Assembly: GCA_903911205.1 (NCBI GenBank)
Contig: CAIWCL010000286.1
Location: 1 to 34,190, forward strand
Direction of reading: 5' to 3'
DNA length: 34,190 bases
Source of the DNA: an uncultured bacterium
GTDB taxonomy: Bacteria > Planctomycetota > Phycisphaerae > Phycisphaerales > SM1A02
The notes beneath the pieces were generated by a model. That model was not told where the DNA came from. It searched no databases and saw only the letters and a list, made by a program, of their open reading frames with translations. Below, piece after piece: positions 4,680 through 24,914 of the stretch. The position numbers were made by a program, and so were the translations under genes. Each line of letters begins with the position of its first letter. The stretch's first letter is position 1.

Positions 4680-6725
4680 TCAGCGCAGTGACTCAATCTT
4701 GCCGCGCATCGTTTCGTTTTTCGTCTCGCGCGCGAGTCGCTCCATCGCCGCGCTCCAGCCTTCGGCGCCGAGTAATCGAACACCCGTCGCCTTCAGCATG
4801 AGGAGATCGACCGAAGGATCAGGGCCGCGCGGGTCTCGCGCGAGAAGCGCCACAAGTCGCGGATCTGCGAGTGTTGCAAGGCGCGGAGTTGCGAGTTGCC
4901 AAAGCATCTGACGAGCAATCCTGCTCGGCTTTGCAGTCATCGCGTATGCCACAGCGAAGCCATCGAGATCACGCGCGCGGAAGAGCGCACCGAGCGCATA
5001 CGAAGCCCCCGCTCGCGCGCTCTCCGTCGCGCCGCCTGTTCCACTTCCGATCTTCCACGCTTGGCGAACTCGCTCGTCTTCGCCCGCAAGTTCAAGCGCT
5101 TTGATCGCCTCGGCGAATTTCGCAGGATCCTTGGACTCCTTCCACTCCTTCAGCATGACCACCGCTTCGTCGCGCAACGATGCAGCGGTGTCTTCCGACG
5201 GCGCAACACGCTTGACTCCGATCTTTTTGGTCGACGCGAGCAGTGCAAGCGGATCGCCATAGCTCATCGTGCGCCACGGACGTGCGAGCGGGCCCTCAAA
5301 TTGCCGCGCGGCAATCGCAAACGGAATCATCGCGTCGGCGCGTTGCGCGAGCAGCGTTGGCGGGATGAACGCCATCAAGAGTGGCTCATAGACTGAGCCG
5401 AAGTACGCGTACGCACCCGCATCAAGAAACGCTCCGCCGATGCACTCGTCGCTCGCAGGGAACTCCAAACTGAACGAGTGCAAGAAGTGCACCATCGGCG
5501 GTCGATCGAACACAGGAACGTCGCGTGCGGTCGCCGTGCCTCCGGCCGCGAGGCCAAACTGCGTCGCGATGCCGTGCGAGTTCACAAAGAGTACGTCCGA
5601 ACCGAAGCCACCCATCAAGATCCGTCGCCAACCGTCGAGGTTCGACTGATCGCGACCCCACGATTGAACGACCATGCCTTGCGACTCGAGCGGCGCAGCT
5701 GCGCCTGCCGTGTCGTAATCGTTCCATCCTTGCCCCGCGTCATAGGTATGAAAGAGCCACGCACTCTGGCGTGGCGCGAAGAGGGACGCCATCGCGACGT
5801 ACGCGCTTCGCACCTCGCTACCGACGATGCCGGAACCCACCGACCACCACATGCCATCGCGATGGCGACCGAGCGTATTCAGCGTCGCGACCGGCTGGCC
5901 CGGAGCCGTTGGAAACGGACCACTTGGGATGTTCACCCTGAGCGCCTCGGGCAAGTCTGGATCGCATTTCCATGCGATCTCGCGGCAGATGGCAAATGCA
6001 TCGATGGCATCGCCGAGGCCCTGCCAAGGAAGTCCGGTTCGGTCGGCAGCCTTCTCAAGTTCGTTCGCAAGTCGTGCGAACGTCGCTGCATTCATTTTGT
6101 CGTTCACGCGACCGAAGTCATCGCTCGTCCAGTGAATCGGCGCACCGCGCCCGGCTGAAAGTGCGGCTGCAGCCGTCCATGCAGGATCATTCGCGTTCGC
6201 GAGAATCACCATCGGCGGCGCAAAACCACGCGCTCCGCACGCCGCAATGACGTCCACAGCGCCATCATTGATTGCCTCTGCGGCCGACGTCGCAATGAGT
6301 TTCTCGCGATCGCTCTGCACTTCCGGCATCGCCCCGACGGATGCACGCCGAATGACTCGCGATGGCTTGAAGCCACGCACAAAGAGCGGCGCGTACACAT
6401 CGTCTTCGATCAGAATCGGCCAACGCGCCTTCTCTGACCACCGCGAGAGTTCATCGAGATAGGTCCGCGCATCAGGAACAAGTACGACTTGGTCAATGAT
6501 CGGCCAGCTGCGTTCGAGTGCAGCAGCACGCATACCAAGCACGATGGGCCATGGCGTTTCCGTTGGCGCGGAGTTGCCCTCACCGATCCCCACGCCCGGA
6601 CCTTGTCCGTTCTGCGCGATCGCTGGGGTGCACGCGAAACACGCGGCAATCACCGCAGCGCGCGACAACGAAAAACGTGCGAACACATCGAGCGTCAACG
6701 ACCAGCGTGGCTGCGGATCAAGCAT
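4680..6725 (-). CDS. Large exported protein of unknown function, possible caspase-fold (clan CD-like) domain
   Basis: The 681-residue product has a signal peptide (hydrophobic AAVIAACFACTPAIAQ ending near residue 38). No family is recognised with confidence. Residues 75-130 contain a conserved-looking block (VVLVPDARTYLDELSRW, RWPILIEDDVYAPLFVRGFK). Residues 378-445 resemble the core of gingipain/caspase-like clan CD peptidases: a strand ending in His-Gly (VNSHG, H384-G385), about 33 residues to another strand (VHFLHSF), then an ECIGGAFLDAGAYAYFGS block like the siaE..L..G..a..Gs stretch that follows the catalytic cysteine. The expected cysteine position reads HSFS, so if homologous the site may be degenerate. 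The C-terminal third is helical and repeat-like. TATTCT lies 6 nt before the ATG. Confidence 0.6.
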   Translation of the reverse strand: MLDPQPRWSLTLDVFARFSLSRAAVIAACFACTPAIAQNGQGPGVGIGEGNSAPTETPWPIVLGMRAAALERSWPIIDQVVLVPDARTYLDELSRWSEKARWPILIEDDVYAPLFVRGFKPSRVIRRASVGAMPEVQSDREKLIATSAAEAINDGAVDVIAACGARGFAPPMVILANANDPAWTAAAALSAGRGAPIHWTSDDFGRVNDKMNAATFARLANELEKAADRTGLPWQGLGDAIDAFAICREIAWKCDPDLPEALRVNIPSGPFPTAPGQPVATLNTLGRHRDGMWWSVGSGIVGSEVRSAYVAMASLFAPRQSAWLFHTYDAGQGWNDYDTAGAAAPLESQGMVVQSWGRDQSNLDGWRRILMGGFGSDVLFVNSHGIATQFGLAAGGTATARDVPVFDRPPMVHFLHSFSLEFPASDECIGGAFLDAGAYAYFGSVYEPLLMAFIPPTLLAQRADAMIPFAIAARQFEGPLARPWRTMSYGDPLALLASTKKIGVKRVAPSEDTAASLRDEAVVMLKEWKESKDPAKFAEAIKALELAGEDERVRQAWKIGSGTGGATESARAGASYALGALFRARDLDGFAVAYAMTAKPSRIARQMLWQLATPRLATLADPRLVALLARDPRGPDPSVDLLMLKATGVRLLGAEGWSAAMERLARETKNETMRGKIESLR

Positions 6726-9980: not shown

Positions 9981-12695
9981 TCATGGAAAGAAACCTTCCG
10001 CGAACGGAGTCTGCCGGAGACGTCCGAGTTCCGCAGAGAAGGCGTACGCGATGATTCGCTGGAGGTGCCGCTCGTTCGACGCACCATCGACGGCCTGCAG
10101 CATCAGGAGCATGCGCCGTCCGTCCGCCTCAGTCGTCGACCCGCTCCGGCCTGGGGTGAACGGCTGTAGCGCGCCAGAGCCGAGACTGGTCTCGCACCAC
10201 CTCTTCCACCACTCCTTCCAAGACGCGTCGAGCGACTGCGCATCCGCGCCCGCGCCGTCGATCGAAGGAAGTCCGGCAAGAGGCTCCTCGAGCACCGTCT
10301 GCTCGCATCGATCGAGCCGTGCGATGAGCGCGGCGTCGTCGCCAGCCACCGCGCGCAGCACGCGGATCGTCCGCGACGCGGACATCGTCCCCGTCGACGC
10401 GCACCCCGATAGCCTCTCCACCATCCGTAAACTGAAGCGGAGGCGTGCGATCGCATCAAGTTCGATCGACCACGCTGCGTCGAGAAAGATTGGCGCCGTC
10501 ACGAGTCGTATCTCAAACGCAAGTCCGCCACGCGCGTCTTCAACGAGACCTCCACGCTCGACGACATCCATGCGCCCCTCCTCCGCGCCCGTCCGCGCCT
10601 TAAATGCCGCGCGCGCGTCGAGTTCTGCGCGTTCGTCTTGCAACGCTGCATCCCGGAAGCGCTCGGCAAACGCAGGCAGATCCGCGACGAGCTCGTCGAT
10701 CGCAGGGAGCGCCGCGACGAACAGCTTGCGCTGATCAACGACACCGATTCCCGCCGCCGTCGCAATCGCGAGAATGTCGTCGGGGATCCTCGTTCCGATG
10801 ACCGCATCCGATCGACTGAGGAAATAGTCCATCCTCTCAAGCGAAAGAACCGCCGCTGCCGCGCTCTGTTTGGGTAGATCGAATGCGCCGCGCAGCGTCT
10901 GCATGCGCGATGTATGGAACGCGTTCTCCCGAGCAATGTCGTCGGGCAGAGTCCGCCAGACCGTCGCATCGACTTCGCCGAACGCGTCTAGACCACCCCG
11001 GGATCGACGCGCCAACACCTCGGCTGCAGTCGGCTCCGACGCAATGAACGCTGCGAGCACCGCCTCGATTTCATCCTTCGGTCGGTCGATGCCATCGAGA
11101 CGCAACGCGCCGACCGCACGACGAAGATCCGTTGCCGGAAGACGACATGTTGGGTTCAGAACCTCGCCGCCACTCTCCGCGGGCGCACTTTCGGTGTAGC
11201 CCTGTCGGATCAATCGCACCGAGTCCTTCTCTGACTCATCCTCGTGTGCCATCAAGTTCTCTTCGGAAGCCGATCCGAATCGGCGCCAGTCGGTACGCAA
11301 TTCCGAATCGTCCGCGAAGCCTGTATCGGCAATCCGCGCGACGTCATTGGCTTCTGCGCGCCCGGGCGTACCCTCGCGTTGCACGATGCCCGAGATCCGT
11401 GCAACGCGCACCGCGAACTCTTCGGGCGACGATGCTTGCATCGCGTTCTTGAAGGTCCGGACCAGTGCCTCCGTGAACGGATGCTCGCCGCGCAGCATTG
11501 CATCCCGCGCGCGCGCGTCGGCTTCGCTGCCCGTGAAACCGGCGGTAAAAGCGCGATCCTCGGCGAGAAACGCTCGGTACGCGGCAACGCTCGCCATGAC
11601 GAAACGGTGCCGTTCCTCGCGCACGGCGCGCTCCGCGGCGGCATCCCCTTGCGCCGCGGCTGCATCCCGCGATCGGTCCTTGCGCAACCCGCGCAGAACC
11701 CTCTCCAACTCCCGCCACGGCTCGGTGATCGCGCTCGCGAACCCGCCGTCGCGGCACGCGTTCGCGATGAGCTCGACGCGCAGCGCGTCGGCAGCGTCGA
11801 GACTGACCTCAGCCTCGACGCGGTCGGCAAACGCGAGGTTCGCCGCGAGATTGGCACGCGCAAGACGCGCGATCGCACGCAGGGCGTCGTCGGCGGCCTG
11901 TGCTTCCGCGCGGCCCAACTCCGCGTCGTACAGGACCGGAGCGTGCTGCTCGACGGCGGCAAGCTCGAACCCGATCCGACGAAGCTCGCGATGCTCGCCG
12001 AGGATCCGCGGCCACTCGACCGCGAGCAGCGCATCAAGCGCGACCCGACGCTCTTCCGGCACGCGCTGGTGGATGCGTGGATGACCCACCGCAACGGCGA
12101 GATCGACGCACGGCGTCGTCAAGATCGGGAGTCGGTCGATGGAAAGCGATGTGCCGTCGGAGAACGCGACGCGATGCGCGATACGACCACGGAAGTTCGC
12201 CTGCGCGATTGCATCGAGCGCGGAGGGCGCACCGGTGGCCACGCAGGCCTCGATGACGCGCGTCACGAGCGCCTCATGAAGTACATCAGACGCTGCCCAC
12301 GCGTCCGCGAGTGCACGGCTACCCGCCGCGTCATCAGCCTCAGCCGCGGCGTCAGACATCCGACGCGACTTCGGTGGGAGTCGAACGCTCCAATCCGCGT
12401 CAAACGCGGTATACGCATCGCCAATCGCGGCAAGCGCATCGCCGCCCGCATCGAGCGTGCGCGTCGCCTCGTAGAGAAGTTCGACGAGCGTGATCGACTG
12501 CGGCATCTGGTCGAGCGAGGTCAACTGTCGGCGGAACTGCGCCGATGCCGCAACGGAGTGCACCAACGTCGCGCGCGTATCCCCAGCAGAAGCTGGATGG
12601 TGAAGCGCACCAACCGTCGCCGCCAACAGGGTCAGCGCAACGAGGCGCGATCGCTCGTTCAGAAACGGAGCAGCACAACCGCTCTCAATCATCAT
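9981..12695 (-). CDS. Large exported protein of unknown function, downstream member of a paralogous pair
   Basis: The 904-residue product has an N-terminal signal-like segment (RLVALTLLAATVGALHHPASAG, positions about 17-38) and no recognised domain. The rest is predicted to be almost wholly alpha-helical, rich in Ala, Arg, Glu and Asp. A block around residues 625-690 (LSLERMDYFLSRSD, PDDILAIATAAGIG, ALPAIDELVADLPAF) matches in order and spacing a block in the neighbouring gene (LRFERTDLAASRAS, PLGRLLASASIDPG, AKAELNAIAVSLPQR), so the two are probably ancient tandem paralogues. Its ATG at 12695 overlaps the stop of the upstream gene by 11 bp, implying coupled translation and a stoichiometric pair. 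Function and localisation beyond export are unknown. Confidence 0.75.
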   Translation of the reverse strand: MMIESGCAAPFLNERSRLVALTLLAATVGALHHPASAGDTRATLVHSVAASAQFRRQLTSLDQMPQSITLVELLYEATRTLDAGGDALAAIGDAYTAFDADWSVRLPPKSRRMSDAAAEADDAAGSRALADAWAASDVLHEALVTRVIEACVATGAPSALDAIAQANFRGRIAHRVAFSDGTSLSIDRLPILTTPCVDLAVAVGHPRIHQRVPEERRVALDALLAVEWPRILGEHRELRRIGFELAAVEQHAPVLYDAELGRAEAQAADDALRAIARLARANLAANLAFADRVEAEVSLDAADALRVELIANACRDGGFASAITEPWRELERVLRGLRKDRSRDAAAAQGDAAAERAVREERHRFVMASVAAYRAFLAEDRAFTAGFTGSEADARARDAMLRGEHPFTEALVRTFKNAMQASSPEEFAVRVARISGIVQREGTPGRAEANDVARIADTGFADDSELRTDWRRFGSASEENLMAHEDESEKDSVRLIRQGYTESAPAESGGEVLNPTCRLPATDLRRAVGALRLDGIDRPKDEIEAVLAAFIASEPTAAEVLARRSRGGLDAFGEVDATVWRTLPDDIARENAFHTSRMQTLRGAFDLPKQSAAAAVLSLERMDYFLSRSDAVIGTRIPDDILAIATAAGIGVVDQRKLFVAALPAIDELVADLPAFAERFRDAALQDERAELDARAAFKARTGAEEGRMDVVERGGLVEDARGGLAFEIRLVTAPIFLDAAWSIELDAIARLRFSLRMVERLSGCASTGTMSASRTIRVLRAVAGDDAALIARLDRCEQTVLEEPLAGLPSIDGAGADAQSLDASWKEWWKRWCETSLGSGALQPFTPGRSGSTTEADGRRMLLMLQAVDGASNERHLQRIIAYAFSAELGRLRQTPFAEGFFP

Positions 12696-15294
12696 CGCGT
12701 ATCCACGGGTTCATGTTGTCATCGTCGCCCGTTGCGCTCTCATCTTCCACTACAAGCCCGGGGACCGATGTCGCCAAGTCAACGCCGAGGACTCGACGCA
12801 ACTCAGCAAGGACCTTCTCTGTGCGCTCTTTGCGATTGAATCGCGCCTTCTCGACCGCTTCCGCGCGCTTCTGATACTCAGCCCACGTCGCTTCGTCGGC
12901 GGCTCCCGTCATCGCGAGGTTGGGAGGCATCACCATCTCGCCGCTGAGTTTCTCGTACACCGCCGCATACTCAGCTTCGAGCGCGATGATGCGCGCACGC
13001 TGATCATCGGTCAGCCCCGGCAAGCGCTGGGCTGCATCGAGTTGCGACTGCGCACTGTCTGATCGCTTGTAGACGTCGGGATAGGCAGTCGCGAGAAGCG
13101 TCCGTCGGAATAGTCCGGCGACCGCAGCATCTCCCGCATGCGCATTGAACGCGTCAACGAAAGTCTTCGTAAGCAGCTCACCAAACGCGCGATCCAAGCG
13201 CTGCTCCTGCAGCAGGAATTCACCATACTCGCGCGACGCACGCTCTACTGCGGCCTGATCGCGCGATGCGAAGACGCGCTCGGTGGCCTGTCGACGACGC
13301 GAGAGTTCCATCCGATCCTGAACACGTTGCGGCAGCGATACCGCGATGGCATTGAGTTCGGCCTTGGCCCCCTCGAGCACGGCACGCGCGACCCCTGGAT
13401 CAATCGATGCCGACGCGAGGAGCCGACCGAGCGGCAACGGAAGGCCAGAACTCCCGGCCATGCCGCTTGCGCGCGATGCGGCGAGATCGGTCCGTTCGAA
13501 ACGAAGCAGCATCAGGAGTGGATCGTCTCCTGCAAGACCAAGCGCGCTCGCGAGATCGGTGTACAGCTTCTCATCGAGTTCAAACACAGCCCGTGCGGCC
13601 TGGAGACGTGCCTCGTCGTATGTGCGAACTGCGCTTTCGTCATAGGTGATGCCACCCTCTCCGTTGGTGGACATGAGCTTTTGCCCCGATTCCTCAATTC
13701 GCACCGCGATCGGACTCATCTGGGCATCCCAGTGCGAAGTCTTCCAACCGTCGACAATAGCCTCGATCACGCTCTGAGCGGTGCTATCGAGACCGATCGT
13801 TCGCGCGACACGAACAATGTCCGCCGCGGTCAGTGCATCGGGCGTGGTCGCAAGGCCACCGTTGACAAACATCGAACGCTGCGCTGCCGCAGTGACCTCC
13901 GCGCCGGCGTCCGTTTCTGCGTCCGGCTTCGTCGCGTTTGCGACGCGGAAGAACTCCGACTCGGTTCCGTCCTCCTCGTAGCCCGTGAAACTCGTCACGT
14001 ACGTCGGCGCCTTCTCGCCAAGTTTCGCGGCGATTTGCTTCAGCGCGTTGTTTCCGACCTCGCGAAGTTGTCGTCGCGCCGACTCCAGCGCTTCAGACTC
14101 TCCCGACATGCCGAACATGCTCATTTGGGATGGAGCATCCAACGCAAGTTCCGCGACCTTCTCGCTCGCTTGCGCTTGCTCGCGACGCCACGACGTGAGG
14201 ATGCGAGCGATCTCTGCCTTCACTTCAGGCGTGATGTCGGGATCACGCTCGATGCGGCGACCAAGCGTGCGCATGCCGGGACGCGACCCACCGCTCATGT
14301 TGAAGCCGACGCTGTTTGCCGCCGCATCAGCCACATCGAGACGCAACGAAAGTCCCGCGTCTTCAGGAAGCAACGCGGCCAGTGCGGCGACACCGGCGCG
14401 ATTTGCCTCAAAGTTCGACTTGACCGACTTGCGTACATCTGCGCCGAGCGCCGCGAGTTTCTCCATCATCGCGCGCTGCTGTTCTTCGAGCGCCTTCATT
14501 GAATCGGGCATCGAATCGGGATTCGCAGGATCTACCGAACCCGCCGCCGCCTGCATGGATTCCTGCATCGACATCATGATGTCGAAGAATCCGACGAGCG
14601 CCTTTCGAACGTCCGCGTTGTAGGTGCGCGCCTGCGACAACGTGCGTTGCTCTTGCGAACGGAGCGCGGCGTCGAACGCTTCACGGTTTTCCGCGGCAAC
14701 CTTACCAAAGTACTCCTCACGAATTGCCCGGGCGGGGAGATCGATGAACCCCGCGCCGCCACCAAGCATCATTGGCGCAAACTGCACGATGCCCGAGAGC
14801 AAGCGCTGGCGCTCGCGCGTCTCGCGCACACGCTGCATGCCGCCGCGGCGAGATTCTGCGAGAAGTTCGGTGGCAGACGCGAAGAACTGGTTGTCGGCCT
14901 CGGAAATCTTGTCTTGCAAGCGATCGAGATTCCGCAGGAACTTCTCATACTCATCTTTCGAAGGCTGACGACCGCTCATCGAGTTCATCATCGTCGAGGC
15001 TTCAGGTTCAATCTCCGCGCGATAGCGATCGAGGTACGACTCATGAAGCCGATCAATCGCCGCGGCTTCAGCATCGGTGGGCGAGACATAGGCTTTCAGA
15101 AAACGTTCGAGTCGCTGCGTGGTGATTGGCCCGCCGACGATGTCGCGGCTTGACTGCGCGGCCGCGGGAAGTGCCACGAGCACCGTCCCAAGGGCCGCGA
15201 TCATTGCAAGCGTTGCGCGAGCGCGCCGACGAACAGCGCAGAGGTGGGAATCGAGGCGAAGCGTGCGCGATACCCAGCGAGAAACCGTGCTCAT
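12685..15294 (-). CDS. Large exported helical protein of unknown function, upstream member of a paralogous pair
   Basis: This protein (869 aa) has a long n-region then a hydrophobic signal segment (ATLAMIAALGTVLVALPAAAQ, about residues 27-47) with an Ala-x-Ala cleavage site. The mature protein is rich in Ala, Arg, Glu and Gln with heptad-like stretches, for example residues 60-140, 740-765 (DDQRARIIALEAEYAAVYEKL) and 785-830, suggesting extended coiled coils. No known domain is recognised. The C-terminus is acidic (about 25 residues rich in Asp and Glu). The start at ATG 15294 is supported by AGGAG six nt upstream; a TTG two codons earlier is less likely. It overlaps the next gene by 11 bp and shares a conserved block with it. 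Hypothesis only: the two act together in the periplasm or cell envelope. Confidence 0.75.
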   Translation of the reverse strand: MSTVSRWVSRTLRLDSHLCAVRRRARATLAMIAALGTVLVALPAAAQSSRDIVGGPITTQRLERFLKAYVSPTDAEAAAIDRLHESYLDRYRAEIEPEASTMMNSMSGRQPSKDEYEKFLRNLDRLQDKISEADNQFFASATELLAESRRGGMQRVRETRERQRLLSGIVQFAPMMLGGGAGFIDLPARAIREEYFGKVAAENREAFDAALRSQEQRTLSQARTYNADVRKALVGFFDIMMSMQESMQAAAGSVDPANPDSMPDSMKALEEQQRAMMEKLAALGADVRKSVKSNFEANRAGVAALAALLPEDAGLSLRLDVADAAANSVGFNMSGGSRPGMRTLGRRIERDPDITPEVKAEIARILTSWRREQAQASEKVAELALDAPSQMSMFGMSGESEALESARRQLREVGNNALKQIAAKLGEKAPTYVTSFTGYEEDGTESEFFRVANATKPDAETDAGAEVTAAAQRSMFVNGGLATTPDALTAADIVRVARTIGLDSTAQSVIEAIVDGWKTSHWDAQMSPIAVRIEESGQKLMSTNGEGGITYDESAVRTYDEARLQAARAVFELDEKLYTDLASALGLAGDDPLLMLLRFERTDLAASRASGMAGSSGLPLPLGRLLASASIDPGVARAVLEGAKAELNAIAVSLPQRVQDRMELSRRRQATERVFASRDQAAVERASREYGEFLLQEQRLDRAFGELLTKTFVDAFNAHAGDAAVAGLFRRTLLATAYPDVYKRSDSAQSQLDAAQRLPGLTDDQRARIIALEAEYAAVYEKLSGEMVMPPNLAMTGAADEATWAEYQKRAEAVEKARFNRKERTEKVLAELRRVLGVDLATSVPGLVVEDESATGDDDNMNPWIRDDD

Positions 15295-15408
15295 GCTCAA
15301 CTCCTATAGCTGTCCGTGGCGAGAAACTCCGCGCACCGTACTTCAACCTCCGCTAAACACGTTCGGGAGAGCGTGTGAGATGTTCAAAAAACTTCGACCA
15401 AACAAAAA

Positions 15409-17467: not shown

Positions 17468-18670
17468 TCACCCGAGAACCCGTGCGATCAGGCCGCGTGC
17501 GACTTCTGGGTCCGGCGTCCCTCCAACAACGACCCGCGTCGCATCTTTGGATGCCACAAGATTGAGGCTCCAAGCGACACCTCCATCTTGCCAGTGCACG
17601 GACAACGTCGAGGAACCCTCGTAGTCAAATCGCTCGACCTTCCCGAGCAATTCGAAGCGCGTCACAATGCGCGAGATTCCCTCGGACTCGAGTGCCCCGC
17701 CGATCGGAACTTCAACCGCGTTGCGTCCGCAGAGCGTACGGGCTCGCCGCTTGATCATCCCCGCCCCATCGAGAAACTCAAACCGGCCCGCCGCGCAGCA
17801 CCGACAGTCCGGATCGCGCGCTTCTTGTAGCGTCGAACAACTGAACGATCCGGCCGAGAGATCAAAGCGATACAGCGCGTGAACAAAGTCATTTCGCGAT
17901 GCAGTCGGATCCGCCGCGGCCAAGCGCAGTACCAGCGACGCTTCGAGAGATCCCACAATCCCCGTGGAAGCCGCGAGAACACCAACAGTGTCGCACGTCT
18001 CAACTTCACCAGGCGTTGGCGGTTCCGGCGCGATACATCGAAGGCATGGCGTCACCTGCGCGAGTCCATAGGAGATCCGGCTCGACGATGGCGCGCGATC
18101 GTTCACGAGCGAAGGAGCCGCAATCGGAGCAGCCACGACCGGATCGAACTCGGGTTCTACGCGCGTGACACCCGTCACCGGCAAGAGCAGTGCCGCCATC
18201 CCGCGGAATCCGACCGCTCCGCCGTAGACAAACGGCAAACCAAGAGCAACCGAACAATCGTTGAGGACGTAGCGCGTTTCGAAGTTGTCGAGGCAGTCGA
18301 CAAGAATGTCGTGCTCGTCACAGATCCGTCTCGCATTGTCACCTCGAATGTCATCGACCACCGCACGGACACGAGCGTCTGAACGAATCTGCAAGAGCCG
18401 GGCCTTCGCTGCCTCAGCCTTCGGGGTTCCTCGATCTGCATCACGCTCTGCGAAGAGCGTCTGACGCTGTAAGTTCGACCGATCGACGATGTCACGATCG
18501 ACGATCGTCACGGTTCCAACGCCCGCACGGACAAGTTGCTCGGCAACGACCGTACCTAGCGCACCACAACCCGCGATGAGCACTCGCGACGCACCAAGCC
18601 GACGCTGCCCCCGCTCGCCGAATCCGGCGAGTCGCATCTGTCGTTCGTAACGATCGAGAGAGTTTTCCAC
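17468..18670 (-). CDS. ThiF/MoeB/HesA-family adenylyltransferase (E1-like)
   Basis: E1-like enzymes of this family adenylate the C-terminal glycine of ThiS, MoaD or similar small carriers so sulfur can be loaded. The 400-residue product (GTG start) has RYERQMRLAGFGERGQ (residues 7-22), the ATP-binding GCGALGTVVAEQLVRAG (34-50), VDRDIVDRSNLQRQTLF (57-73) and DCLDNFETRYVLND (125-138). A zinc site is likely formed by C209/C212 (CLRC) and C289/C292 (CRCC). The C-terminal 100 residues form an extra domain with LCGRNAVEVPI and a final TPDPEVARGLIARVLG. An insertion of about 35 residues (170-206) precedes the first CxxC. The substrate carrier is not encoded nearby. A -10-like TAACCT sits 8 nt before GTG. 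Confidence 0.85.
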   Translation of the reverse strand: MENSLDRYERQMRLAGFGERGQRRLGASRVLIAGCGALGTVVAEQLVRAGVGTVTIVDRDIVDRSNLQRQTLFAERDADRGTPKAEAAKARLLQIRSDARVRAVVDDIRGDNARRICDEHDILVDCLDNFETRYVLNDCSVALGLPFVYGGAVGFRGMAALLLPVTGVTRVEPEFDPVVAAPIAAPSLVNDRAPSSSRISYGLAQVTPCLRCIAPEPPTPGEVETCDTVGVLAASTGIVGSLEASLVLRLAAADPTASRNDFVHALYRFDLSAGSFSCSTLQEARDPDCRCCAAGRFEFLDGAGMIKRRARTLCGRNAVEVPIGGALESEGISRIVTRFELLGKVERFDYEGSSTLSVHWQDGGVAWSLNLVASKDATRVVVGGTPDPEVARGLIARVLG

Positions 18671-18678
18671 GGTGCGCG

Positions 18679-18710
18679 AGGTTAGCCGAGGCGCGGCCTT
18701 CCCGTATGCT
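18679..18710. promoter_or_regulatory. Divergent -10 boxes for the ThiF-like and DUF374 genes
   Basis: TAACCT on the minus strand (18679-18684) lies 8 nt before the GTG at 18670. TATGCT on the plus strand (18705-18710) lies 8 nt before the GTG at 18719. The boxes are 20 bp apart, so each box falls roughly in the -35 zone of the other. Neither gene has a Shine-Dalgarno. Confidence 0.4.
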
Positions 18711-18718
18711 TCGCGCAG

Positions 18719-19444
18719 GTGCACGCAACGCCGCACAACGCCAGCTCCCCAACACCGGGGCTCCACAAACTGGACACCGCGCCCTGGCGCGCTTCGTATT
18801 CCAAGCGGTTGCAAGTAGAACTCATTGCCCGCCTGGGTTACCCGCTCCTCTCTCGATGGGGCTCGACCTATCGCTTTCGCCTCGAAGGGGGCGAGCATCT
18901 TGAGCGGGCGTTCACCCTTGGGAATCCAATCGCCTCGTTCTGGCACGGCCGAATCGTGCCAACACTGATCTACTTCCGCGATCGAGACGTGGCTGCCATG
19001 GCGAGCGAGAGTTTCGATGGGGAGTGGATCTCTCGGCTTCTCACCCAGTTCGGATACCGCACCGTACGCGGATCGAACTCTCGTGGCGCGCGACGCGCGA
19101 TGCTCCAGATGCTTCGCGACGTCCGCGATACGCCGGTCGCATTCACCGTTGATGGCCCGCGCGGCCCGAACCGCGTCGCACACCCGGGCGCAACATGGCT
19201 CTCGCGCGCAACAGGCAATCCGATCTTGCCCTTCCACATGGAAGCCGATCGATTCTGGACTCTGCGCCATTGGGATCGTTCGCAAATTCCAAAGTTCGGT
19301 GCACGAGTCGCGGTGGTCGTCGATGATCCATTCATCGTTCCAAGCGATGCCGATCACGACACGCTCGAACAATTTCGACTCCGACTTGAAGCCTCGCTCG
19401 CTCGGTGTGAAGTTCGCTGTCATGCGATGCTCGCGGGCGCTTAG
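18719..19444 (+). CDS. DUF374 / lysophospholipid acyltransferase-like protein
   Basis: The 241-residue product matches the DUF374 branch of the LPLAT superfamily, thought to acylate lipid A-like or phospholipid precursors at the inner membrane. Visible family motifs are the catalytic-type His in ASFWHGRIVPTLIYF, then MASESFDGEWISRLLTQFGY, TVRGSNSRGARRAMLQML, TVDGPRGPNRVAHPGA and MEADRFWTLRHWDRSQIPK. These agree with DUF374 in order and spacing. GTG 18719 was chosen as the first start that includes the full N-terminal helix; it lacks an SD and has TATGCT 8 nt upstream. The antisense frame is open throughout and links two minus-strand genes, but is judged a shadow. It converges with the next gene about 53 nt away. 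Confidence 0.85.
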   Translation: MHATPHNASSPTPGLHKLDTAPWRASYSKRLQVELIARLGYPLLSRWGSTYRFRLEGGEHLERAFTLGNPIASFWHGRIVPTLIYFRDRDVAAMASESFDGEWISRLLTQFGYRTVRGSNSRGARRAMLQMLRDVRDTPVAFTVDGPRGPNRVAHPGATWLSRATGNPILPFHMEADRFWTLRHWDRSQIPKFGARVAVVVDDPFIVPSDADHDTLEQFRLRLEASLARCEVRCHAMLAGA

Positions 19445-19497
19445 GTGGGCGCCCGTCGGTCTGGCACCGACGTGAACAACGGATGTTGCGCTCCTGT

Positions 19498-20938
19498 TTA
19501 TGGGCGATGCACCAACATCATGCACGGGCGAACGAACGCCCAGCGGCTTGATTCCAAACGGTGCATCGCGAATTCTCCTCGACGGCGTGGGACTTCGCGA
19601 AGAAGGCCGAGCGGTTCCTGCAGTCGGTCGTACGCCACACGCACGACGCCAGTCATCAAGCCGCTCCGCACTCACGCGGACACGGCGCTTCGCGAACTGT
19701 AGTTCACCGTCGCTGTCGATACAGACCGCGTCGAAAAGCTCTACCTCGATCGTGTGTGTGACACGAAGGCGCTCGGCCAACGCGGCACACACGTATCCCC
19801 TGTTTCGCGCCGCACGGATCTCCGCAAGTACTCGGTCATACGGTCGCTCGGTACCCGTGAGTGGCGATACGCCGTCTTCTCCAAGTGGCCGGGGATCCAT
19901 GGTGGACGCGGTATCCGGATCCCAACCCGCCGACGCAAGCCGTGTCGCACGAGAGAGCCGAATGATCGCCATCCCCTCCGAGTCCGCGTGCCGCGCAAGG
20001 ATGGCGTGCACAACATCAAGCCGAGCAAGCCACGCGCGCGCGACCGCACACGATTCTCGAAACTCCGCTTCAGCCTCGCGCACTGCGGACTTCGCAGAAG
20101 GCGACGCACGGACGCCGATCCGCAGTCGCCCCACTTTTTCGAGCAGGCGCTGTCGTACTTGATCGGATCCAGGATGGATCGGCGGAGGCGGCAGCGCATC
20201 GACGATTTGGCGAATGACCTCTGCGGGAAGCGGACCGGCGGGACCGAGCCCATCCTCGGCTTGCGCGAGCATCGCGCGATCGAGCGCGCCCAGCAGCGCG
20301 TGCTTGACCACGAGTGCACACGCCCGATCAAGATCCTCGTCGCGCTGAAGACTCGCACTCCGCAACGAAACTCGGCGTTCTCGCACCGCTTCTTCGAGAC
20401 CCGACGTACCCGACGACTCTACTGTGTCTGATTGCTTCACCCTTGGCGCTGCCGTGCGCCCCGCGCGGAGTGCGGCCCAAACGCCCCGCGGCGGCGTAGG
20501 GCCATCCTGGATGAGTGCCGCCAAAATCTCCGAGCGATCGAGTTCGATGGGGGCCTCGATGGTCGGGGTAATTGCGTCGCTCCACGCGGCGATCCGAAGC
20601 GCCTCGGCGGCATGCGACGACATTTCAACTGCAAGCGCGCGAAGCCGCGAATCGCGTCCGCCTGAAGCAGGCATCGTCCGCGCAACAGCAATTGCCGAGC
20701 CTGCTCGCGAGGGAATAGAGACACGAACTGGCGCGGTGACCTGCCCCGCCGCGAGCGTAAAGACCTGCCCCGCGGACAACCCTGCGACGCCATTGGCGCC
20801 GAACGCTCCAATCAACACGCGGATGCAGACCACGAGCCCTCGACGCGCCGTCGGACACAACCTCACGGCACCATCCCGAAATCGGCGACGTAGGCGCTGT
20901 GTGATTCCATGCAAAAACCCAAGCTTTCGATGCTTCAT
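19498..20938 (-). CDS. Exported protein of unknown function, probable 3' frameshift
   Basis: From ATG 20938 (GGAACGGGGCGGGA upstream) the frame encodes a basic N-terminus, a hydrophobic signal or anchor (GLVVCIRVLIGAFGANGVAG) and about 400 further residues without a recognised domain, rich in Ala, Arg and Glu and mostly helical. In this frame there is no stop until 17468: it would run through the antisense of the DUF374 gene into the ThiF-like gene. Between 19671 and 19498 the +1-shifted frame gives a more natural sequence (VAYDRLQEPLGLLREVPRR) and ends in TAA at 19498-19500, a sensible convergent end. I therefore infer a frameshift or assembly error within about 19600-19671. Function unknown. 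Confidence 0.5.
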
Positions 20939-21275
20939 TCCCGCCCCGTTCCTTGTGTGATGCGAAACCGTCCGTCGATTCCGTTTCGATCGAATGCGCG
21001 CCATTCGCGCGTCCATGTATCGAAATCTAACGTGGCCTCAGGAGCGACCTTCGATCGGTGGCAAAAGTTCCAGCGTAAAAAATTCGGAGGAAAAATCGTT
21101 CACGATTTTCCGCACACCGCACATCGGTTTCAAAATGCGGCGCAGCGCGCAAGCGCGTATGTGAACTCGTGCTTGAACTCGTGCTTGAACTCGTACTCGT
21201 ACTCGAACTCGAACTCGAACTCGTACTTGAACTCGTGCTCGAACTCGTGCTCGAACTCAGGGCCGCCTTGCGCTC
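20939..21275. other. 337-bp spacer with weak terminator and hexamer tract
   Basis: This region lies between the kinase stop and the unknown exported gene, both on the minus strand. It holds a hairpin at 21089-21111 (GGAAAAATCG-TTCA-CGATTTTCC) followed on the minus strand, after six nt, by TTTTTT; this could be a weak terminator for the kinase operon. It also contains the hexamer tract listed separately. No gene was recognised. Confidence 0.5.
21163..21258. repeat. Sixteen-unit hexanucleotide tract (GAACTC / GTRCTY)
   Basis: Ninety-six bp of uninterrupted 6-bp units, GAACTC alternating with GTGCTT, GTGCTC, GTACTC or GTACTT, ends 17 bp beyond the kinase stop. On the minus strand the unit reads GAGTTC/GAGYAC. 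It is a slippage-prone tract of length divisible by three. No start codon or SD was found to make it coding. Confidence 0.9.
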
Positions 21276-22946
21276 TCAGACGATCGCACTATCGCGGCGC
21301 GGAAACTGATTCAGCAGTTCGCGCAGCACCACGAGAAGATCAGGCGGCGCGAATGGCTTCGGCATGAATCGTTGATGCGCAGCGAGTCGTCCCTGGCGCA
21401 ATGCCGGATCCTCGCTGTATCCCGACATAAATACTGTCGGCGTGAGACCGCAGGATTGCTCGATCTTCGCAGCCAGTTCCGGACCAGTGAGGCCCGGCAT
21501 CACCACATCCGTCACCACGAGATCAAAGGGCCGTCCTACCGTCGCGAACTTGAGTGCGGCTTCGGAAGTGAGACTGGACGAGACTTGATACCCAGCCTGC
21601 GAGAGCACGCGTTCAAGGAGTTGCCGCACCATCGATTCGTCTTCCACGAGGAGCACGCGTTCGCCGCGACCACCATGTGCGACAACGGGCGTCGGCTGCG
21701 TCGTCTCCGCGACACCAATGATCCGCGGGAGGAATACTTGAAAGGTTGTTCCAACACCCGGCGCGCTTTCGACGGTGATCTTTCCGCCGAGCTGTTCGAC
21801 AAGTCCATAGACCGATGACAGTCCGAGGCCCACGCCCTTCCCAACTTCCTTCGTTGTAAAGAATGGCTCGAAGATTCGCGCTTTCGTGGCCTCATCCATC
21901 CCGACGCCGTCGTCGCTTACGCGAAACTCGACGAAGTCTCCGGAGCGCAACGACTCGCTCGGTGCAGCCGTTGGAGGACGCGCTTCGATGCGCACGTGTC
22001 CACCCTTCGGCATTGCGTCGCGCGCGTTCAAAACGAGATTCATGAGAATTTGCTTGAGCGCGGCGCTATCTGCCTGCGCGCGTCCCGCGTCTGGATGCAC
22101 TTCGCAAAGTAGTTCCACACGCTCGCCGAGAAGAGGCTTTGCGAGACGTTCGAGTTCAGACACCTCGCGGCGCAAGTCGAGCGACTCAATACGCAACGGA
22201 TGCTGACGACTCATTGCGAGCAGCGCACGTGTGAGTGAGGCCGCGTGATCCGTCGCGAGTCGGATTTGCTCAAGGCTGTTCCGAACCTGCTCACCCGCGG
22301 GCGTTCTCGACATCGCCAACGCGGTGTAGCCGTGAATCGCCATCAAGATGTTGTTGAAGTTGTGCGCGATGCCGCCGGCAAATCGGCCCACAAGTTCCAT
22401 CTTCTGGATCTGGCGAAGTTCCTCTTCGAGCTGACGCTGCTTCGCCATTTCACTCCGCAATCGCGCCGTGAGTTCGCGCAGATCGCGATTTGTCGAATCC
22501 TGCGTCTGCAGCAAGATGAGAAAATCTCCGCGTGCATCGTGCGGCGGAAAGTCCTGCATCGTCAGACCAAGCGCCGCGAGATCGGAGATGTTGGTGAACC
22601 AGGGTCCACCGACAAAGAGCAACCGATCGCCACCATCATCGCCACCGACGCGCACGAACTGGCCACGCAGTTTGAACAACGGGCGCGTCGCGATCGACAG
22701 CAAGAAAATCGCGCCGTCGTGCGACGAAATCGCATCAAAGTCGACCAAGTCGGTCGGACGCTCGACGACGAAATGCGCCGCGAACGCATTCCCGGGCTGT
22801 AACTCTGGAAGCGCCGTCCGCCAACGCGGGCCATGCGCTGTCACGCGCATTGAGCGATCGATCGCGATGAAAAACGGAAACAGTGTGCGGACGAGAGACT
22901 CGTCGCTGCCCTTTCGAACGGGGCTGCTTTCGGAACCATCGCTCAC
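21276..22946 (-). CDS. HNOBA-domain hybrid histidine kinase (partner of H-NOX)
   Basis: The 556-residue product (GTG start) has four parts. Residues about 20-152 match the HNOBA domain known from soluble guanylate cyclases: [48 protein letters not shown] and [19 protein letters not shown] coiled coil follows (about 153-185). The HisKA phospho-acceptor is H195 in [11 protein letters not shown], and the HATPase has the N box (N307, LVLNARDAM), DDGVGMD and [15 protein letters not shown]-terminal receiver (425-545) has phospho-acceptor D480 in [10 protein letters not shown]. There is no membrane segment and no DNA-binding output. GTG 22946 overlaps the H-NOX stop as GTGA and has AAGGA nine nt upstream; a TTG at 22970 is an alternative. 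The next response regulator in the relay is not in the window. Confidence 0.9.
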
Positions 22947-23503
22947 GAAGTTGCGTCCTTGGCGCGCCAACGCACACGGAATCGATCATGCGGCCGCGTT
23001 CCATCGACGCGCTCCCATGTTGCCTCAACCTCAAGACCGAACCGATCGCCAAGCCCTTTCAGAAGACCAACGACAAGCGGAGCGAGCCCGGGTCGTTCGG
23101 AGTAGTAGTGAAGGACAAGCGCTTGCGCTTCTTGTTCACTCACCGAAAAACTCGGTGGCATGAGATGAGGGAACGACAACTTCACGCGCGTGTGCAGTTG
23201 ATCGAGATTGCCCAGAAACTCTGGCAAGGTGCTTCCCGCACTTTTCATCAACTCGCCGTAACCCGCCTCGGCCGTGTAGACAGTCCAGAAACGCCCGAAC
23301 TCTTCGAGAATCGCTTCTGCGGTTGCACCAAGTTCTTCGGTTGCCGCGCCGACGAGGTCGTAGGTCGTCTTATCCGGATACTGCTCCATCGAGACGAATG
23401 GTTCGTCGGGAAGCCCGGCTCTTGCACGAATCCGCGACCAAGCCGCGTCTCCGAAGCGTGTGCGAACGAGCCCCTCGACGGCCTTGTTGATGAGTCCGTA
23501 CAT
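22943..23503 (-). CDS. H-NOX (haem-nitric oxide/oxygen binding) sensor protein
   Basis: The 186-residue stand-alone H-NOX starts MYGLINKAVEGLV as in the family. The proximal haem ligand is H104 in LDQLHTRVKLSFP, and the haem-propionate motif Y-x-S-x-R is Y133/S135/R137 in HYYSERPGLAP. No tyrosine follows the motif where O2-binding H-NOX proteins carry their distal tyrosine, so a NO-selective sensor is predicted. Bacterial H-NOX proteins typically regulate a kinase or cyclase encoded beside them; here the neighbour carries HNOBA, the natural partner domain. A four-nt stop/start overlap (GTGA) indicates tight co-expression. The start at 23503 has TAAGGT six nt upstream, which could act as a -10 box or, through AAGG, as a weak Shine-Dalgarno. 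Confidence 0.95.
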   Translation of the reverse strand: MYGLINKAVEGLVRTRFGDAAWSRIRARAGLPDEPFVSMEQYPDKTTYDLVGAATEELGATAEAILEEFGRFWTVYTAEAGYGELMKSAGSTLPEFLGNLDQLHTRVKLSFPHLMPPSFSVSEQEAQALVLHYYSERPGLAPLVVGLLKGLGDRFGLEVEATWERVDGTRPHDRFRVRWRAKDATS

Positions 23504-23509
23504 GGGCGT

Positions 23510-23515
23510 ACCTTA
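23510..23515 (-). promoter_or_regulatory. Putative -10 box of the H-NOX/kinase operon
   Basis: TAAGGT lies six nt before the H-NOX ATG on the minus strand. Two terminators lie between it and rpsG, so the H-NOX operon needs its own promoter. Its AAGG could instead be an SD. Confidence 0.3.
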
Positions 23516-23735: not shown

Positions 23736-24251
23736 TTACCAGGCGAAGTGCGCGAAGGCCTTGTTCGCATCCGCCATGCGGTGCGTGTTTTCCTTCGTGG
23801 TCACAGCCTTGCCTTCGTTCTTGGCGGCATCCCAGAATTCCTTCGCGAGACGGAGGTGCATCGGGCGGCCCTTCTCTTCGCGCGCGGCTTCGATGAGCCA
23901 ACGGAACGAGAGCGACTGCTGACGACGCTTATTCAGTTGCATCGGAACTTGGTAGTTCGCACCACCGACGCGCTTCGAACGGACTTCGACCGCCGGGCGC
24001 ACGTTCTCGAGCGCGAGGTGGAAGAGTTCGATCGCAGAGCGTGGCATCGACTCCGCCTTTTCCTTGTCCGCAGCGCGCTCCTTGTCGAGGCGCGTCTGGA
24101 TCGCCTCAAGGGCGCCGTAGACGCAACGCTGCGCGGTAGCTTTCTCGCCGCCGATCATGACGCAGTTGATGAACTTCGACAGGATCTTGTCCTGGAAGCG
24201 CGGATCGGGTTTCAGCCAGTAATCGTCGGGACGCTTGTAGTGACGTGCCAT
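23736..24251 (-). CDS. rpsG: 30S ribosomal protein S7
   Basis: S7 nucleates assembly of the 30S head on 16S rRNA and lines the E site. The 171-residue product has FINCVMIGGEKATAQRCVYGALEAI, LALENVRPAVEVRSKRVGGANYQVP, SFRWLIEAAR and the conserved C-terminus MADANKAFAHFAW. An insertion of about 20 charged residues (DKERAADKEKAESMPRS) separates helix 2 from the LENVRP region compared with E. coli. AGGAG upstream fixes ATG 24251; a longer ORF to 24299 is rejected. rpsL lies 270 nt upstream, a wide gap with two strong hairpins. After rpsG two terminators follow, so fusA and tuf, the usual next genes of the str operon, are missing here. Confidence 0.97.
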   Translation of the reverse strand: MARHYKRPDDYWLKPDPRFQDKILSKFINCVMIGGEKATAQRCVYGALEAIQTRLDKERAADKEKAESMPRSAIELFHLALENVRPAVEVRSKRVGGANYQVPMQLNKRRQQSLSFRWLIEAAREEKGRPMHLRLAKEFWDAAKNEGKAVTTKENTHRMADANKAFAHFAW

Positions 24252-24357
24252 TGAGAACACTCCTGTGGCTGACGGCGTCGGCCTGCAGGCCTCGGCCACT
24301 CTTCACCGCGGATGGGAGATGGACATTCCCGTGCGTTCGGATCCGCGATTACTCAGC

Positions 24358-24521: not shown

Positions 24522-24914
24522 TCACTTCTTCTTTGTGGCAGCAGCGGCCTTCTTCTTGACGCCGTACTGCGAGCGGCCCTTCTTGCGGCCGTCCACACCG
24601 AGGCAGTCAAGCGCGCCACGCACAACGTGGTAACGCACACCAGGAAGATCGCGCACACGACCACCGCGCACGAGCACGATGGAGTGCTCCTGCAGGTTGT
24701 GGCCTTCGCCACCGATGTAGGCCGTGACTTCCTTGCCGTTCGTGAGACGCACACGGCAAACCTTGCGAAGCGCGGAGTTCGGCTTCTTTGGGGTCACGGT
24801 GCGAACCTGAAGGCAGACGCCGCGACGTTGCGGGCACGCGCCAAGGTCCTTGACCTTGGACTTGGAGGCCTGCACAACGCGTGGCTTACGAACGAGCTGA
24901 TTAATCGTGGGCAT
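24522..24914 (-). CDS. rpsL: 30S ribosomal protein S12
   Basis: S12 sits at the decoding centre and controls translational accuracy. The 130-residue product is canonical: [69 protein letters not shown]. The C-terminal tail is Lys/Ala-rich ([11 protein letters not shown]). In the loop that reads [11 protein letters not shown] in E. coli the sequence is [11 protein letters not shown], so Lys87 (E. coli numbering) is arginine, encoded by CGC; the other streptomycin-related lysine in TPKKPNSA is kept. ATG 24914 fits the family start; only a weak GAG precedes it. rnhA ends 117 nt upstream on the same strand. Confidence 0.98.

Follow-up and report, generated by a model that had tools for sequence, protein, structure and literature searches.

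An H-NOX/HNOBA hybrid histidine kinase pair for probable nitric oxide sensing in a planctomycete

The stretch of DNA analysed here (the window) comprises 34,190 nucleotides, positions 1 to 34,190 of contig CAIWCL010000286.1 (assembly GCA_903911205.1), from an uncultured planctomycete of the Phycisphaerales lineage SM1A02. Its minus strand encodes a stand-alone H-NOX protein and, overlapping it, a hybrid histidine kinase that begins with an HNOBA domain (Table 1). We consider it probable that the pair represents the front end of the beta subunit of soluble guanylate cyclase (sGC), split over two proteins, with a hybrid histidine kinase in place of the cyclase as its output. Nitric oxide (NO) is the predicted ligand.

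Table 1. Features of the window that are discussed in the text
Feature	Positions	Strand	Basis and details
H-NOX (HNOB) protein, 186 aa, ATG start	22943..23503	minus	ORF and Pfam; H104, Y133-x-S135-x-R137, distal L143 and W73
Hybrid histidine kinase, 556 aa from GTG	21276..22946	minus	ORF and Pfam; start overlaps H-NOX stop as GTGA
HNOBA (H-NOXA/PAS) and following helix, about residues 17-181 of the kinase	22404..22898	minus	Pfam; matches to 2p04, 2p08 and sGC
HisKA, residues 187-248	22203..22388	minus	Pfam; phospho-acceptor H195 in HNFNN
HATPase_c, residues 293-408	21723..22070	minus	Pfam; N307, D345, G347, G349, G371, G373
Receiver, residues 431-540	21327..21656	minus	Pfam; D480, K530, acidic E435/D436
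rpsG, ribosomal protein S7	23736..24299	minus	Pfam Ribosomal_S7, 170.7 bits; directly upstream of H-NOX at 232 bp; outside the sensor, given as context
rpsL, ribosomal protein S12	24522..24914	minus	By eye from sequence; upstream of rpsG; context

The gene pair and its predicted ligand

The Pfam scores of the domains in both proteins are far beyond chance. The HNOB profile (PF07700) matches residues 2-161 of H-NOX with 167.7 bits against a cut-off of 25.5 and covers positions 1-161 of its 163. The kinase has HNOBA at 71.9 bits (cut-off 23.4), HisKA at 29.0 (26.9), HATPase_c at 92.5 (26.4) and Response_reg at 65.8 (30.2). The original prediction, which was made from the sequence alone, had named a stand-alone H-NOX with His104 and the Y133-x-S135-x-R137 motif, the overlap of the two genes as GTGA and a kinase whose HNOBA N-terminus is fused to HisKA, HATPase and receiver domains, and it was right in all of these points. 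The HNOBA profile does match within the residues 20-152 that it had given, but two match stretches together cover a wider span, because they extend into the helix after the PAS fold. Likewise, its span of 21276-23515 for the pair holds at the lower end, but the upper end lies 12 nt before the ATG of H-NOX. An alternative TTG start at 22970 would give a kinase of 564 aa.

HNOB and HNOBA are each found by Pfam at a single place in the genome (393 contigs, 96.86% complete), which is this locus. Among solved structures, the best match of the H-NOX protein is the Nostoc H-NOX Alr2278 (E 2.5e-54). Closest to the HNOBA domain are 2p04 and 2p08 (E 1.6e-13), both of the PAS domain from a signal-transduction histidine kinase of Nostoc punctiforme, followed by sGC beta1 (6jt0_B, 5.2e-12). 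With these specific relatives and 71.9 bits, we rejected the idea that HNOBA is a chance PAS match. No NCBIfam family scores above its cut-off on H-NOX, and none does on the kinase among the 25 of 151 matches listed, the best of which are CckA models. No cyclase family matches either protein among Pfam matches up to E 1, and the class III cyclase domain of sGC is thus absent from them. The nearest H-NOX proteins in named genomes (L109 and L110, 90 and 92% identity) come from metagenome-assembled genomes labelled Planctomycetaceae, although such labels are unreliable.

The residues that catalysis requires of the kinase and receiver are all present (Table 1). In H-NOX, the residues H104, Y133, S135 and R137 are invariant across a 20-row alignment of the planctomycete phylum, and they align with H102, Y131, S133 and R135 of the Tt protein. 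That protein belongs to the O2-binding H-NOX subgroup, which is defined by Tyr140, Trp9 and Asn74, the residues that stabilise O2. All three are replaced in the window H-NOX, Tyr140 by L143, Trp9 by V9 and Asn74 by W73. Furthermore, each of the 20 aligned rows has L, M or F at the Tyr140 column and W at the Asn74 column. The alignment therefore suggests that NO rather than O2 is the likely ligand, as the original prediction had argued from the missing distal tyrosine.

One could imagine that this H-NOX senses O2 or a redox signal and passes it to the same kinase partner. The H-NOX proteins of some species do bind O2 or respond to oxidation, according to an excerpt of PMC7108781. However, the replacement of the three Tt residues speaks against such a sensor here, and we regard it as quite improbable. 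A search for other NO-related genes was of limited help: NnrS was matched nowhere, and the controls likewise gave no match, so that this result is uninformative.

Contact between H-NOX and HNOBA

The pair is conserved well beyond the window. In a sample of 392 genomes of the phylum, searched with profiles for HNOB and HNOBA, 22 match HNOBA; in 20 of these, the window's genome included, HNOBA adjoins H-NOX (in genome G360 in pieces). The matches in G223 and on contig C75 of G177 were rejected as whole domains, since they cover profile positions 160-216 and 181-216 only, which is the helix. In named genomes, where we took the best 80 of at least 576 confirmed H-NOX relatives, 79 loci have an HNOBA gene next to H-NOX and in the same orientation, and in the 80th (L131) the contig ends inside H-NOX. 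The labels of these loci include Cyanobacteriota, Pseudomonadota, Acidobacteriota, Verrucomicrobiota, Chloroflexota, Bacteroidota and Gemmatimonadota.

The proteins that carry HNOBA beside H-NOX display five output architectures. Some of the named loci have a plain kinase, and at least 34 of the 80 have a kinase with a receiver as in the window; this is a lower bound, since the receivers of L151, L158 and L171 escaped the search with the window's receiver. Eight HNOBA genes are cut by a contig end. Those three loci encode a kinase-receiver-Hpt protein (Pfam; Hpt, histidine phosphotransfer). A GGDEF-EAL output occurs in L145 and L148 (Pfam) and in L153 (by eye), and a SpoIIE phosphatase with HATPase_c_2 in L063 of genome G107 (Pfam). 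We consider these varied fusions of HNOBA beside H-NOX to be the best comparative evidence for HNOBA, and not the kinase core, as the part that goes with H-NOX.

Contacts known from sGC point in the same direction. In the beta subunit, according to part of PMC8196705, D102 and D106 of an H-NOX helix contact R258, R305 and K307 of the PAS domain. Three of the five residues are kept across the two window proteins. The counterpart of D102 is D101 in H-NOX (D in 74 of 81 rows), that of R258 is R63 in HNOBA (R in 71 of 82 rows) and that of K307 is R94 (K or R in 81 of 82 rows). R63 and R94 rank 23rd and 30th among 165 HNOBA columns, that is, they are well but not exceptionally conserved. L131, whose H-NOX is too short, was left out of the 81 H-NOX rows and of the tree described below. 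Two HNOBA proteins without an adjacent H-NOX show opposite losses, one keeping R258 and losing K307 and the other the reverse, although a sample of two proves nothing.

Two relatives have natural H-NOX/HNOBA chains that can be read through the stop, and these were modelled with AlphaFold from 73 alignment rows each. The L149 pair has the same architecture as the window pair, and its model (390 aa, pLDDT 89.4, pTM 0.69) superimposes on the beta subunit of NO-activated sGC (8hbh_B) over 365 residues with Z 33.9, a root-mean-square deviation (rmsd) of 5.5 and TM 0.77 of the query. It fits resting sGC (6jt0_B) less well, with TM 0.64. The neighbourhood, the conserved contacts and the L149 model together make it likely that H-NOX would dock on the kinase via HNOBA, as the original prediction had proposed; the second model, of L145, does not bear this out. 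That model (388 aa, pLDDT 91.2, pTM 0.63) gives TM 0.43-0.47 and rmsd 13-17 against human sGC beta, and VIA-align gives Z 24-27 and an rmsd of about 13, so that the single domains match well and the arrangement does not.

Kinases without HNOBA are probably contacted by H-NOX at the HisKA or ATPase domain. The same could hold here if HNOBA were a PAS dimerisation domain only, a role that would accord with the L145 model and with descriptions of the HNOBA/PAS domains of sGC and the Nostoc kinase as a dimerisation element in portions of PMC8196705 and PMC2828450. However, HNOBA is retained while the output changes to a SpoIIE phosphatase, GGDEF-EAL or different kinases. The L149 model reproduces the sGC arrangement, and an excerpt of PMC3765656 reports from hydrogen/deuterium exchange in sGC that the PAS domain contacts the haem-linked helix of H-NOX. 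A contact elsewhere in the kinase thus appears unlikely to us.

Several observations weigh against the proposed split sensor or against the evidence for docking. D106 of sGC is not conserved, being T105 here and T or A in 69 of 81 rows, and the position of R305, K92 here, is variable among relatives. D102 and R258 do not co-vary: 58 of 74 pairs (loci with a single row for each protein) have both, nine have only D, five only R and two neither. Over the same pairs, the distances of H-NOX and HNOBA proteins correlate with r 0.88, compared with at most 0.14 in 2000 permutations; this speaks for the pairing, but shared descent alone can produce such a correlation. Besides the outcome of the L145 model, both modelled chains are joined through the stop, which forces the domains together, and come without pairwise error. 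HNOB occurs in 42 of the 392 phylum genomes but HNOBA in only 22, and in G037, for which 8% contamination is given, an HNOBA kinase (78.6 bits) is present whereas H-NOX is matched nowhere in the genome. The 80 named loci were selected with a single pattern taken from aligned HNOBA-partnered H-NOX proteins and hence indicate breadth and not an unbiased rate. A copper nitrite reductase search of the genome gave no match, so that no NO source of its own is seen. Finally, H195 is followed by N and not by D or E, a feature shared by 10 of 59 relatives with a core match of more than 190 residues (HNFNN; HDFNN occurs in 22 and HEINN in 11).

Other arrangements of these genes were also seen. In L112, L115 and L067, two H-NOX genes precede one HNOBA kinase, and in L139 and L186 the order is reversed, with the kinase before H-NOX. 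The cyanobacterial loci L145 and L156 have H-NOX flanked by HNOBA genes on both sides; the downstream one is a kinase, and the upstream one in L145 is the GGDEF-EAL protein. In L071 (G129:C288) HNOBA matches in two frames, and three receiver proteins come after the kinase, the nearest of which has an HDOD domain. The HNOBA kinase of G037 (L065, G037:C294) is divergent from a receiver gene, which is sigma-54-type by eye, and it has lost the K307 counterpart. The HNOBA-SpoIIE-HATPase_c_2 protein next to H-NOX in G107 lies at L063:7839-9581 on the minus strand; a second HNOBA-SpoIIE protein (L081:7473-9278) is about 22 kb from L063 and has no H-NOX match in the surrounding 20 kb. The H-NOX matches of L068 (G360:C5) and G360:C3:170014-170494 are split over frames, one with an internal stop, and these copies are probably decayed or misassembled.

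Mechanism and phosphate output

The mechanism that we propose, in which haem binding, the ligand, the docking and the direction of the effect are all predictions, would run as follows. The separate H-NOX would bind haem through H104 and take up NO, which would break or weaken the iron-histidine bond and so shift the H104 helix. This shift would be sensed by HNOBA/PAS of the kinase dimer, the presumed docking site, and the helix that follows HNOBA would relay the signal to HisKA and thereby set autophosphorylation at H195. The phosphate would then move from H195 to D480 of the fused receiver.

Where the signal goes from D480 is more difficult to predict. The hybrid architecture of the kinase would suit a four-step phosphorelay, from H195 to D480, on to a histidine phosphotransfer protein and finally to a distant response regulator, and in three relatives (L151, L158 and L171) the HNOBA kinase itself ends in an Hpt domain. 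The original prediction had the receiver hand its phosphate to an unlinked phosphotransfer protein. However, a Pfam Hpt search at E 0.1 found no free-standing Hpt in the genome, although such models overlook some true Hpt proteins and about 3% of the genome may be absent from the assembly. The three Hpt domains that it did find belong to two large kinase frames of chemotaxis type. One of these has CheW and H-kinase_dim, the other HATPase_c in the scanned stretch and a CheB gene on the same contig. The ChpT-type profile PF10090 matches at seven places, four of them in frames that also match the window kinase (its own frame included). Only the window kinase frame exceeds the cut-off of 22.9, and the three places outside kinase-like frames score 12.0 to 16.7 bits. 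Such a relay is therefore possible but doubtful.

The genome search for response regulators, which the original prediction had also proposed, was in contrast productive, with 22 receiver matches, the window's included. Of the 21 others, 18 were scanned with Pfam, and L092, L094 and L099, which lie in long frames, were left out. Their outputs include sigma-54, OmpR-type, LuxR-type, GGDEF, HD, SpoIIE, CheB and HTH_17, and five are receiver-only. Because no free Hpt was found, our guess for the output of the split sensor is direct phosphotransfer to, or competition with, an unlinked response regulator. Among the relatives, a separate receiver follows the kinase in L078, L079, L080, L154, L157, L160 and L175.

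Ribosomal neighbourhood and related systems

The position of the pair displays a pattern of its own. The genes rpsL and rpsG lie upstream, as a comparison with the window sequence shows rpsL to do beside S7 in relatives too, and a ThiF-bearing frame lies downstream of the kinase. An S7 match is present in 58 of 61 genomes of the family. Among the 30 S7 loci listed, H-NOX follows S7 in four (window included) and a ThiF gene is within about 1.5 kb of S7 in 14; two of the 30, L223 and L226, end within 300 bases of S7. Among the 80 named loci, 15 have S7 in the same orientation at a distance of 118-826 bp before the first H-NOX, and eight further loci start within 900 bases of H-NOX, so that S7 could be cut off there.

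In an H-NOX tree of 82 rows, one group of 26 rows holds all 17 S7-linked rows, which come from the window and from 14 of the 15 loci, a second H-NOX being present in two of these loci. The support of this group, 89/78, is below the mark for a firm branch. One of its rows is labelled Limnohabitans, two are unlabelled and the rest are labelled as planctomycetes. The linkage label changes five times, and the simplest reading would be that the pair entered once between S7 and ThiF, with later losses or relocations. A promoter and terminator scan of the region was uninformative, giving one and five sites compared with 0.7 and 5.4 in shuffles; the minus strand from rpsG to H-NOX yielded no terminator-like site, in a scan that is no better than shuffles.

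The ThiF-bearing frame (17468-21016, minus strand, 1182 aa) matches ThiF only at residues 790-1073; no Pfam family matches the long stretch before this domain at E 1e-5, and that stretch may be non-coding. Three further minus-strand frames of 681, 904 and 871 aa (4680-6725, 9981-12695 and 12685-15300) also lack a Pfam match at this threshold.

The window pair is a planctomycete example of the known Nostoc H-NOX/HNOBA histidine-kinase kind, since HNOBA scores over its cut-off and H-NOX is adjacent on the same strand. The original prediction had pointed out neither this kinship nor the position behind rpsL-rpsG. Nostoc Alr2278 and the N. punctiforme HNOBA kinase (2p04, 2p08) are likewise a stand-alone H-NOX and an HNOBA-kinase, both matched by the window proteins, and H-NOX adjoins an HNOBA gene in cyanobacterial loci, Nostoc species included. 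However, the window kinase has a fused receiver, whereas none was found in most of the cyanobacterial kinases among the named loci, and the distal M144 of Nostoc H-NOX is L143 here. Iyer, Anantharaman and Aravind (2003) are reported to have introduced the names HNOB and HNOBA and to have noted gene pairs of this type.

Animal sGC beta has H-NOX, HNOBA/PAS and the following helix in the same order, and the counterparts of its D102, R258 and K307 are kept, but it is one polypeptide and a cyclase, whereas the window has two polypeptides and a kinase with a receiver. Stand-alone H-NOX proteins that regulate histidine kinases are described for Shewanella (HnoX-HnoK-HnoB/HnoD) in part of PMC8846402 and for Vibrio in part of PMC6759604. 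The regulators of those circuits are known, whereas no second receiver protein, in addition to the fused one, was noticed next to the window pair. HnoK is not known to carry HNOBA. The HNOBA partners with GGDEF (L145, L148 and L153) share HNOBA with the window kinase, but their output is c-di-GMP turnover and not phosphotransfer.

Among the open-licence papers searched, none has both 'H-NOX' and 'Planctomycetes', and the rpsL-rpsG linkage of the pair was not found, the matches listed for it containing no H-NOX. Among the matches listed, and judged by the listing, no paper on H-NOX with SpoIIE or partner switching was recognised. These results are weak evidence of novelty. The ribosomal linkage and the variety of outputs merit closer attention. 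Tentatively, one could propose that HNOBA is a dedicated H-NOX plug that evolution has combined with kinases and phosphorelays, with c-di-GMP enzymes and with a SpoIIE-type phosphatase that carries an anti-sigma-like ATPase domain, sGC being only one of many cases. As a joint part of this proposal, and no firmer, the NO sensor would belong to the ribosomal str operon, with H-NOX and the kinase inserted between rpsL-rpsG and the ThiF gene and kept in a group of planctomycetes that come mostly from lakes and ponds by their record names. If this is true, production of the sensor would keep pace with that of ribosomes, and the NO stress that it reports may be scaled to growth.

It is not settled how sGC relays NO binding from H-NOX to the domain that follows, and a passage of PMC8196705 states that more would be learned from structures of bacterial H-NOX proteins with their cognate partners. 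With an easy kinase read-out, split pairs would make the H-NOX/PAS contact testable residue by residue, and the many genomes that have the pair are a large natural set for its study.

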